DNA of 48,748 nucleotides, from contig CASEQE010000069.1 in NCBI GenBank assembly GCA_949289995.1, positions 1 to 48,748 of the forward strand. The letters run 5' to 3'. Below, piece after piece: positions 38,766 to 42,349 of this stretch. The notes under the pieces are model-generated. The model was not told where the DNA came from. It searched no databases and saw nothing but the letters and a program-made list of their open reading frames with translations. The translations under genes and the position numbers were made by a program. The stretch is from an uncultured Peptococcaceae bacterium (GTDB lineage Bacteria; Bacillota; Dehalobacteriia; UBA4068). The first letter of the stretch is position 1. Every line of letters begins with the position of its first letter.

Positions 38766-39548
38766 TTATAACGCAGGTTGCCAAAAATGCAGCGGCGTTA
38801 AACTTGTGCAATGTCCCTGACCGTCAATATCTGCCACAACACCGTTAAATTGCAAATCTCCCCTAGCCGTTTCAAATTTTGCCGGCAAACCATCTAAAAA
38901 ACGCTTGATAATAATATTTTTATCCACTCCCAACACTGAATCTCGGGGTCCAGTCATACCAACGTCGGTAATATAGCCGGTGCCTTTGGGCAAAATTCGC
39001 CCATCCGCGGTTTGCACATGGGTATGGGTACCAACGCAAACGCTGGCTCTCCCATCCACATACCAGCCCATTGCGATTTTTTCGCTGGTTGCCTCGGCAT
39101 GGAAATCTATAAATATATAGGGGGTCTCTGCTTGCGCTTGCTTCAGCAACAAATCCACGGTGCGAAAAGGACAATCGACGCTTGGCAGATAGACTCTACC
39201 CAATAAATTGATTACCGCTAAGGACACGTCCCCCAACTGATACAAACCCATTCCCCGCCCCGGCAAACCGGGGGGCAAATTGGCCGGGCGTAGCAAACGT
39301 TTTTCATTTTGGATAAAGTTAAAAATATCTCGATTATCCCAAGTATGATTACCCATGGTAAAAACGTCGACGCCACAATCATGCAATTCATAAAAAACTT
39401 TCCTGGTAATTCCGAATCCGCCGGCGCTATTTTCCCCGTTGGCAATAATAAAATCCACCTGATATTCTTCGATCAAGCGGGGTAAATGGGCGCTCACCAT
39501 ATGCCTACCGGGAGCGCCGACGATATCGCCGATAAATAGTATTTTCAT
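38766..39548 (-). CDS. ymdB: YmdB family metallophosphodiesterase
   Basis: Calcineurin-fold phosphodiesterase; Bacillus subtilis YmdB hydrolyses 2',3'-cyclic nucleotides and affects biofilm and RNase Y-linked processes. The 260 residues match. Metal motifs seen: KILFIGDIVGAPGR (about 2-15), FIIANGENSAGGFGI (about 34-48), FTMGNHTWDNRDI (about 63-75), FIDFHAEATSEKIAMG (about 145-160) and VGTHTHVQTADG (about 170-181), then GYITDVGMTGP. Start ATG 39548 has AAAGGAG upstream. It has its own promoter (39727-39755) and a 170-nt leader with a three-helix fold. rny lies upstream behind a terminator, the usual rny-ymdB order. Confidence 0.93.
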   Translation of the reverse strand: MKILFIGDIVGAPGRHMVSAHLPRLIEEYQVDFIIANGENSAGGFGITRKVFYELHDCGVDVFTMGNHTWDNRDIFNFIQNEKRLLRPANLPPGLPGRGMGLYQLGDVSLAVINLLGRVYLPSVDCPFRTVDLLLKQAQAETPYIFIDFHAEATSEKIAMGWYVDGRASVCVGTHTHVQTADGRILPKGTGYITDVGMTGPRDSVLGVDKNIIIKRFLDGLPAKFETARGDLQFNGVVADIDGQGHCTSLTPLHFWQPAL

Positions 39549-39614
39549 CTTAACTCCTTTATATCGAAGCCCAACGTCCCCATACGCAAACATTATATGC
39601 TTTTCGGGAAGCGC

Positions 39615-39820: not shown

Positions 39821-41362
39821 TTATTTGGCATAGTCCACTGCACGGGTTTCACGAATTACCACAACCTTAATTTGACCAGGATATTCTAACTCCGCTTCAA
39901 TTTTCTTTACAATTTCCTTAGCAGTACGGGCAGCCAGCAAATCGTCTATTTTATCCGGCTGAACGATAATACGAATTTCTCGACCGGCTTGAATGGCATA
40001 GCATTTTTCCACGCCTTCAAAACTTTCGGCAATTTCTTCCAATTTTTCCAAACGCTTAATATAGTATTCCAACGTTTCCCGACGCGCTCCGGGACGGGCT
40101 GCGGAAATGGTATCGGCAGCCTGCACCAAAGCCGCTTCCAAACTATCAACCTCCACATCGCCATGGTGGGCCAAAATTGCGTGGACGATTTCCGGGCTTT
40201 CTTTATACTTGCGGGCAAAGTCGGCGCCAATTACCGCATGGGAACCTTCCATTTCATGATCGATGGCTTTACCAATATCATGCAGCAAGCCGGCCCGTTT
40301 TGCCAAGGTAATATCCGCACCCAATTCGGCGGCCATCACCCCAGCTAAATGGGCAACCTCCACAGAATGTTTCAATACGTTTTGGCCATAGCTGGTGCGG
40401 AATTTTAATCTACCCAATAGTTTAATCAACTCATTATGCAAGCCGTGCACATTGGTATCGAAGGTTGCTTGCTCCCCTTCTTCCCATATGCGTTGTTCCA
40501 CTTCCTTGCGGGAACGCTCCACCATCTCTTCAATGCGTCCTGGCTGAATACGACCGTCTAAAATCAATTTTTCTAAAGCTACTCGAGCAATTTCCCGGCG
40601 TACCGGATCAAAACCGGACAAGATAACCGCCTCCGGCGTATCGTCGATAATCAAATCAATACCGGTCAACGTTTCTAAGGTACGAATATTACGGCCCTCC
40701 CGGCCGATAATTCTACCTTTCATTTCTTCGTTAGGCAAAGCCACTACGGAAACGGTGGTTTCTGCAACATGATCTGCCGCGACCCGCTGAATCGCCGAGG
40801 CGACAATTTCGCGGGCACGTTTTTCCCCTTCTTCTTTCGCAGAATTTTCAATTTCTTTAACCAACATAGCCGCTTCATGTTTTACTTCTTCTTCTATGCT
40901 GGTCAATAAAATCTGTTTTGCTTCGCTAGTGGTAATTCCGGAAATAGATTCTAATTCCTGCAGTTTTTGCTGTTGTAGTTCAATCGCCTTCTGTCTACGG
41001 TTTTCAATTTCCGTTTCTTTTTTGCGAATGGACTCTTCTTTTTTTTCAATGCTATCCAGTTTGCGGTCTATATCTTCTTCTTTTTTCTGCAAGCGTTTTT
41101 CTTGCCGGACAATTTCGTTATATCTTTCTTTATTATCCCGATCCGCTTCTATTCGTTGCCGGTGGATTTCTTCTTTTGCTTCTAATAAAGCTTCTTTTTT
41201 TCTAGTTTCACTTTCTTTTTTGGCATCAATTAGAATTTTGGCCGCCGCGTCCTCCGCGGATTTAATTTTTGCTTCTGCTAAACTTTTGCGCATATAATAG
41301 CCGCCAGCCAAGCCAATGGCTACGCATATAAAAGCTAATAAAATAACAATAACTGGATGCAT
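39821..41362 (-). CDS. rny: Ribonuclease Y
   Basis: Membrane-anchored endoribonuclease that starts mRNA decay in many Bacillota. The 513 residues show an N-terminal membrane helix ([21 protein letters not shown], about 4-24), a long charged coiled coil (about 30-190), a KH domain with [19 protein letters not shown] (about 217-235), an HD domain with [18 protein letters not shown] and [10 protein letters not shown] (about 330-368), and a C-terminal region with [14 protein letters not shown]-type ending. ATG follows GGAGGTG. It has its own TTGACA promoter 240 nt upstream and a terminator hairpin between promoter and gene, suggesting attenuation. Confidence 0.97.
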
Positions 41363-41405
41363 GATTCACCTCCGTTCTTATCATTCTGATAAATTTTAAA
41401 AAAAT

Positions 41406-41426
41406 AACCGGGTTAAAAACCCGGTT
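41406..41426 (-). terminator. Intrinsic terminator in the rny leader (candidate attenuator)
   Basis: Perfect 9-bp stem AACCGGGTT/AACCCGGTT with a 3-nt loop, followed on the minus strand by A and seven Ts. It lies about 150 nt after the rny promoter start and 43 nt before the rny ATG. Confidence 0.8.
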
Positions 41427-41431
41427 CGTGA

Positions 41432-41558
41432 ATATAGATGAAAGACCCACGACACTTTTCGCCTTGGATATGCATAATATATATATGATTTTAGCTAAAC
41501 GGATTATATATATCTTTTCATTTCATCTATATATCAGAAATTCTTCACCAAGAATTCC
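41432..41558 (-). ncRNA. Structured rny leader upstream of the terminator
   Basis: Between promoter and terminator the RNA can form a 9-bp hairpin GGAATTCTT/AAGAATTTC (41537-41558) and a 12-bp long-range helix ATATAGATGAAA/TTTCATCTATAT (41521-41532 with 41432-41443) enclosing an AT-rich arm. No T-box, S-box, purine or other known motif was recognised. It is either a regulatory leader of rny or a free RNA of about 165 nt. Confidence 0.5.
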
Positions 41559-41578
41559 GAACAGTCTTTAACATATAT

Positions 41579-41607
41579 ATATTATTATTTTTCCAGGCTA
41601 ATGTCAA
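41579..41607 (-). promoter_or_regulatory. Promoter of rny
   Basis: Minus strand perfect TTGACA, a 17-nt spacer and TAATAT; expected start near 41572. It lies just after the stop of the CofE-like gene. Confidence 0.75.
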
Positions 41608-41629
41608 GCACTAATTATATCCCTGCCAC

Positions 41630-42349
41630 TCATGCCTGCAGTGGGCGAATTATGCCCATCGGCGTTTGTTGCCCTTCCTGCCCCAAGGGATTGTCTTTGA
41701 GAATACGCACCATCAAATCCTTATCAATAGCCGGATCAGAAACGCCTAAAATCACGCCTCCCAAATCATTGATATCGGTAATAATCACCGGTACGCCTAC
41801 CGCGTCCGCCACATATTTGGCGGTTTTATCCGGTTCCAAAGGACCTAAAGTGACGCAATGGCTCAACGGTTCCACTACATAATCGGCAGGTCCATCGATA
41901 GAAGCTACCCGATAACCAGCTATTTTGTAAAACCATCCCCGGCGACCAAATAATTTGCCAATAGCAGAAACGAAAGCGGCAAACAAAATACGAACGCGTC
42001 CACATTCGCGAACGGCCATTTCCATAGTTTCCGGAATACTAATACCCACGCCATGGGGATTTTTATAAACAAATTTGACCAAAAATCGTGCCAAGCGGCT
42101 AGGCTTAATAGTTTCTACCGGTATGGAGCGACCTTGCGTGGCAGCGACGCTTTTTTCACCAAAAAAGATAATGTCCCCTTTTTCCAACAATGGTCCGGCA
42201 TATTTTTTGGCGACTTCCGCCAAATCGTCGCCTTTCCACAATACATGGGTGCGTAAGCATATACGACGGTAGGTTACGCCGTCTACCACGATATCTGCAT
42301 TTTTTCCTTCATTAATTACCGCATAATCGCAAGCATATTCCATCGTCAC
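41630..42349 (-). CDS. F420-0:gamma-glutamyl ligase-like (CofE family) protein
   Basis: CofE adds glutamate to coenzyme F420-0 in actinobacteria and archaea; homologues of this kind also occur in Bacillota where F420 is not expected. The 239 residues show LRTHVLWKGDDLAEVAKKYA (about 32-51), GDIIFFGEKSVAATQGRSIP (about 58-77), a central segment with NPHGVGISIPETMEMAVREC, VTLGPLEPDKTAKYVADAVG, and TDINDLGGVILGVSDP, all CofE-like. GTG start at 42349 has AGAGG at 8-nt spacing. It lies 60 nt after recX. The real substrate is unknown; a role in another gamma-glutamylation is possible. Confidence 0.72.
   Translation of the reverse strand: MTMEYACDYAVINEGKNADIVVDGVTYRRICLRTHVLWKGDDLAEVAKKYAGPLLEKGDIIFFGEKSVAATQGRSIPVETIKPSRLARFLVKFVYKNPHGVGISIPETMEMAVRECGRVRILFAAFVSAIGKLFGRRGWFYKIAGYRVASIDGPADYVVEPLSHCVTLGPLEPDKTAKYVADAVGVPVIITDINDLGGVILGVSDPAIDKDLMVRILKDNPLGQEGQQTPMGIIRPLQA

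Follow-up and report, generated by a model that had tools for sequence, protein, structure and literature searches.

The window analysed here, a stretch of 48,748 nucleotides, carries on its minus strand an rny gene for RNase Y (39821-41362; 513 amino acids), identified by TIGR03319 at 771.6 bits against a cut-off of 454. In many Bacillota most mRNA decay begins with RNase Y; studies of how the enzyme is controlled have dealt mainly with B. subtilis, in which the control works through the stability of the mRNA. The gene order in the window is recA, recX, a gene for a CofE-like protein, rny, and a gene for a TIGR00282/YmdB-type phosphoesterase (38766-39593, minus strand). The CofE-like gene (41630-42349, minus strand), whose F420 ligase-like product scores far below the family cut-off, adjoins the rny promoter on its upstream side, and the leader described below lies between this gene and rny, also on the minus strand. 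Of all Rfam families, 6S RNA alone (RF00013, 86 bits) reaches its gathering threshold in the window, at 2458-2641 on the minus strand.

The earlier note on this DNA described a perfect TTGACA-17-TAATAT promoter ahead of rny. The -35 box TTGACA (41607-41602), which has a counterpart at the matching place in nearly all relatives, and the 17-nt spacer bear this out; however, the -10 box TAATAT (41584-41579) matches TATAAT at only 4 of 6 positions, for 10 of 12 consensus matches overall. Transcription start and termination sites are predictions, and promoter spacing places the inferred +1 at about 41572. The RNA opens with GUUAAAGACUGUUCG (nt 1-15; 41572-41558), directly followed by P2, a 9-bp hairpin at 41558-41537 (arms 41558-41550 and 41545-41537), and by P3, a 12-bp long-range helix of ATATAGATGAAA/TTTCATCTATAT (41532-41521 with 41443-41432). 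The 5' strand of P3 contains a conserved AUAUAGAUGA stretch, recognised in the family alignment and in a phylum motif, and its 3' strand, UUUCAUCUAUAU, comes from the fold and a covariation count. Enclosed within P3 are an AU-rich arm, P4 (GAUAUAUAUA...UAUAUAUAUU; 41514-41476), and a small hairpin, P5 (41469-41445), which varies among relatives, both placed by folding and alignment. An intrinsic terminator, recovered by scan, fold and alignment, follows as AACCGGGTT-TTT-AACCCGGTT (41426-41406), a 9-bp hairpin with a 3-nt loop, and then the U-tract ATTTTTTT (41405-41398); the end of its stem lies 43 nt from the rny ATG (41362), and a ribosome-binding site, GGAGG, can be read at 41373-41369. The 9-bp hairpin, the 12-bp helix, the AT-rich arm and the terminator with its 43-nt distance to rny are thus all present on the minus strand as had been claimed. 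The leader folds at -45.7 kcal/mol (z = -3.8), and 0 of 200 shuffles were as low. Among the 34 genes called in the window, which alone supply the background rate of upstream terminators, rny is the only one whose start has a terminator on the same strand in the 135 nt ahead of it (1 of 34). No promoter of equal quality was found between the terminator and rny.

Folding of successively longer transcripts revealed an antiterminator formed from the first 15 nt, which the earlier note had overlooked. RNA nt 1-15 pair with CGAAC (41428-41424), which overlaps the terminator 5' arm, and with GGUUUUUAAC (41421-41412), which lies inside the terminator hairpin, to give 15 bp with a 2-nt bulge; the 3' partners are therefore the stretch just before and inside that hairpin. 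Folding points to all three strands, together with the swap test described below for nt 1-15 and GGUUUUUAAC and with covariation for CGAAC. Truncated RNAs ending at nt 156-165 adopt the antiterminator (-42.8 kcal/mol at nt 162), and when the terminator 3' arm is present the fold flips to the terminator (-45.7 kcal/mol, versus -42.6 kcal/mol with the antiterminator forced). The two structures share bases and are mutually exclusive, and the antiterminator precedes the terminator in the growing RNA, forming before the terminator 3' arm exists, which makes the earlier note's expectation that most transcripts stop ahead of rny no more than a possibility. The conserved P3 domain, closed by the 12-bp helix, holds the two antiterminator strands together, and this helix fits either state. 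A leader peptide was considered and discarded: the ATG in AUAGAUGA has no ribosome-binding site, the frame in the window reads ATG AAA TGA, and no conserved peptide was seen. An extra pairing of the 5' end with GCUUAAC inside P3, found in leaders L016, L018, L020 and L021, is absent from the window.

Relatives were compared by rny-anchored alignment; they are uncultured gut and digester Bacillota, largely metagenome bins, and the names among them point to goat rectum, termite gut and mouse gut or read UBA5757 and UBA4997. A DNA search with the leader returned only the sister genome at high identity, and in the rny-anchored comparison the same leader layout recurs among family relatives. Terminators lie upstream of rny in 33 of 36 class leaders by a strict scan. 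Across 11 aligned leaders (A1), AUAGAUGA is the same in every one, and AUAGAUGA/UCAUCUAU of P3 are identical except in two that carry UCAUCUGU. The outer helix is 92% paired in the 11-leader family alignment, and 7 of its 10 pairs show compensatory changes. The outer helix and P3 together reach a covariation score of 0.268, versus 0.143 +/- 0.020 for shuffled alignments; 0 of 500 shuffles reach this value, and it collapses when the family alignment is slid by 1-3 columns. The last pair of the outer helix, columns 12:231, competes and co-varies with the terminator pair 231:248, as expected for alternative structures. RNAalifold recovered P3 and the terminator from the family alignment and missed the outer helix, because that helix competes with the terminator; it was therefore assessed by explicit pair counting. 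When 5' ends and terminators were exchanged inside the window's family, the swapped partners paired as well as the true ones in 19 of 5000 permutations. This covariation covers the outer helix, P3 and the terminator, and the interior helices P4 and P5 align poorly between families. The earlier note had made its proposal hinge on conserved helix pairing in relatives, and the pairing is conserved, with compensatory changes.

The survey was extended to 250 Bacillota genomes, 242 of which have a detected rny, with transcription start sites and terminators in relatives chosen by simple scans. Of 40 upstream regions in the phylum set, drawn from almost as many families, about 35 have a terminator ahead of rny, a count that includes the atypical L151 and in which a few short leaders are also uncertain. 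These terminators are mostly CCGAGUUUCUACUCGG and accompany a TTGACA promoter, and many of the leaders start with GGGAGAAACUAG, in which AGAAACU is complementary to AGUUUCU of the terminator. Among 61 leaders, the pairing of each 5' end with its own terminator beat pairing with the terminators of other leaders (0 of 5000 permutations), and the corresponding swap test on the outer helix gave 20.25 versus 15.71 +/- 0.38 for 56 leaders (0 of 5000) and again 0 of 5000 when restricted to 26 phylum leaders. When the terminator 3' arm is left out, 62% of the arm and loop nucleotides pair with the leader 5' end, versus 36% with shuffled 5' ends (65 leaders; p = 5e-9). Once the first 45 nt are removed, 55 of 57 leaders form the terminator with a probability above 0.8. 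In intact leaders the equilibrium probability of the terminator spans 0 to 1, with the terminator favoured in most, which indicates that the balance in intact leaders varies from species to species and must depend in part on kinetics.

The leader interior differs strongly between families in both length and sequence, and some families have shorter, different switches, seen by eye as CCCCUGG:CCAGGGG in L134, AGUAGCCC:GGGCUACU in L157 and AGCCACUUU:AAAGUGGCU in L160. The short leaders L134, L143, L157 and L160, which are unrelated in sequence, each hold a 7-9 bp complement to their own terminator, and this suggests that rny attenuation has originated or been rebuilt on more than one occasion. 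In five leaders (L040, L041, L042, L123 and L124), a sequence resembling (U)UAGAAUA occurs twice, at the 5' end and in mid-leader, opposite only one UAUUCU(AA) ahead of the terminator, which may allow a second alternative pairing. Of 71 Paenibacillaceae-type loci, no more than 4 have a terminator-like hairpin ahead of rny, and these hairpins belong to a single weak type. The Paenibacillaceae rny leaders L051, L052, L062, L072 and L165 lack a terminator and have another conserved layout in common, with CCCAAG...CUUGG immediately ahead of the ribosome-binding site and, in some, a hairpin of the UUUUUACUUU type; this layout is possibly a control element in its own right.

A covariance model of the family element (R1) was run on 61 genomes and found one strong match per positive genome, always directly upstream of rny. 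A few chance-level matches aside, no element serving another gene was found in these genomes. Among the matches with E of 0.01-1, those in genomes G035, G037, G041 and G008 fall on rny leaders and so support a shared origin reaching outside the family; the rest look like chance. In Rfam 15, the leader has no gathering-level match and none that convinces at E <= 10, and for 20 phylum leaders the scan returned nothing but chance matches below threshold, none of them at plausible scores, so that the earlier statement that no known riboswitch motif is recognised holds for this release. Most families of a 2017 survey of 224 RNA motifs should be in Rfam. No rny element was found in the open papers searched, a search that covered the main texts of work on the discovery of structured RNAs and on premature terminators. 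What appears to be new here is an rny attenuator with an unusual antiterminator built from the 5' end of the transcript, and an earlier description is possible.

Taken together, the leader holds an intrinsic terminator between promoter and start codon, a 15-bp alternative pairing that excludes it, and compensatory changes that maintain both. With the conserved pairing, the single-copy link to rny and a true antiterminator, the proposal that this is a candidate attenuator of RNase Y is strongly supported, and we are confident, judging from sequence and predicted folds, that the leader acts in cis as a transcription attenuator of rny. Bacteria with this leader probably adjust the amount of RNase Y by ending the transcript early. 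The folding suggests how: as polymerase crosses the terminator 5' arm and loop, an intact leader would transiently form the antiterminator and polymerase would pass, and if the antiterminator strands were separated or their pairing upset, the terminator would form and rny would be left untranscribed. A version in which the intact leader is read through by stability was set aside, since the terminator is favoured at equilibrium in most leaders; a kinetic reading is preferred, and antitermination must on these grounds be kinetic or assisted.

The exclusive link to rny argues for self-control, and the interior of the leader offers a candidate point of attack. A GGGUUUCUUAUAUAGAU-like stretch follows the antiterminator 5' strand from the phylum set through to the window, the motif GGnYYYY..UAUA occurs in 33 of 63 leaders versus 5.4 expected from shuffles, and AUAUA(GAU) recurs across phylum leaders. 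The window version is AUAUAUAGAUGA, which is paired in P3 only once the far strand has been made. In B. subtilis, RNase Y sites have GA in AU-rich, unpaired or weakly structured sequence with structure downstream (PMC11780869), and the conserved AUAUAGAUGA stretch resembles them in having GA in AU-rich sequence; the B. subtilis enzyme also cleaves its own 164-nt 5' UTR (PMC10303841). In the proposed model RNase Y itself would cleave the AU-rich stretch that separates the strands, or sit on it, and so disconnect the 5' strand from the growing RNA, whereby spare RNase Y activity would terminate transcription of its own gene, a negative feedback. In the cleavage version the leader would work as a fuse: RNase Y would cut the growing leader, the 5' strand would be lost, the terminator would form and rny would stop.

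Self-control by RNase Y is our guess, one that fits the exclusive rny link, the conserved AU-rich stretch and the self-control of B. subtilis rny (PMC10303841). Counting against RNase Y as operator, AUAGAUGA is base-paired in P3 after P3 closes (family f1 fold). In B. subtilis the enzyme is anchored in the membrane, and to cut a nascent leader it would have to act within seconds, which is demanding. The B. subtilis precedent also differs in working by mRNA decay. On balance, an attenuator operated by RNase Y is a reading we favour by a hair, RNase Y as the operator by whatever means is an even call, and operation through RNase Y cleavage is put forward tentatively, as a possibility we rather doubt.

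The strict sequence conservation of P3 could instead mean a bound ligand or another protein. An orphan riboswitch, in which a small molecule or ion bound by the P3-P4-P5 domain decides between antiterminator and terminator, would account for the closed domain beside a terminator/antiterminator pair and for the conservation of P3 and the AUAUAGAU stretch in sequence, beyond pairing; however, the interior varies strongly between families, riboswitch classes usually serve several genes whereas no strong copy of the model lies before a gene other than rny, and no Rfam family matches, which makes this explanation unlikely. Operation by something other than RNase Y, whether an RNA-binding or cold-shock protein or polymerase or ribosome behaviour such as transcription speed, would suit a bistable fold that depends on kinetics and a conserved AU-rich stretch that could bind a protein. 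Against this, the element accompanies rny alone in the genomes searched, which speaks for the product of that gene, and no conserved leader peptide was seen; an operator other than RNase Y is likewise improbable.

A role apart from rny regulation is harder still to reconcile with the data. The earlier note had offered a separate small RNA of about 165 nt as its alternative, a length that should read about 175 nt: such an RNA would act elsewhere, with rny served by incidental read-through. Its own promoter, paired ends and strong terminator fit this well enough, but in every family sampled the element keeps its place next to rny, on the upstream side, and, a few chance-level matches aside, it did not occur apart from rny in the 61 genomes, a plain small RNA would have no use for an antiterminator that competes with its terminator, and rny has no equally good second promoter of its own downstream of that terminator. 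This explanation is very unlikely. A passive partial terminator, setting a fixed low rny level without regulation, would agree with an equilibrium that favours the terminator in most leaders; yet a terminator of fixed strength does not need a co-varying, mutually exclusive pairing maintained over a phylum, and we give this version hardly any credence.

If a phylum-wide rny attenuator is true, many clostridial lineages would adjust their decay capacity at the level of transcription, along another route than B. subtilis, and if it is operated by cleavage, rny would read free mRNA-decay capacity and convert it to termination. The leader offers defined, mutable parts (the 15-bp antiterminator, the terminator and the AU-rich stretch), which make nuclease self-control by termination directly testable, and it adds a widespread structured RNA that is missing from Rfam 15.

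Among known systems, the E. coli rne 5' UTR is similar in being the structured leader of a gene for a decay-initiating endonuclease, conserved among relatives. The rne leader recruits RNase E and thereby speeds decay, and it is not known to have an intrinsic terminator switch; enzyme and RNA are both unrelated to those of the rny leader. The rne case has itself been contrasted with RNase Y (PMC10303841). The self-control of B. subtilis rny concerns the same gene, acts through the 5' UTR and the start of the mRNA, and involves a sigma-A-type promoter and a UTR of similar length (164 nt); however, control there is by mRNA decay, with an RNase Y cut followed by RNase J1, and the results and discussion of that study describe no terminator or antiterminator (PMC10303841). 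In contrast to the B. subtilis leader, for which no terminator is described, the window and its relatives have one, and the leader reads as a switch. In its overall plan of promoter, structured leader and mutually exclusive antiterminator and terminator, the rny leader resembles other Bacillota attenuators such as T-box leaders, riboswitch expression platforms and L20-type ribosomal-protein leaders. Autogenous terminator/antiterminator attenuators exist for ribosomal proteins. The rny leader differs from these attenuators in serving rny only, in matching no Rfam family, and in building its antiterminator from the very first nucleotides of the transcript, where they use a strand beside the terminator.
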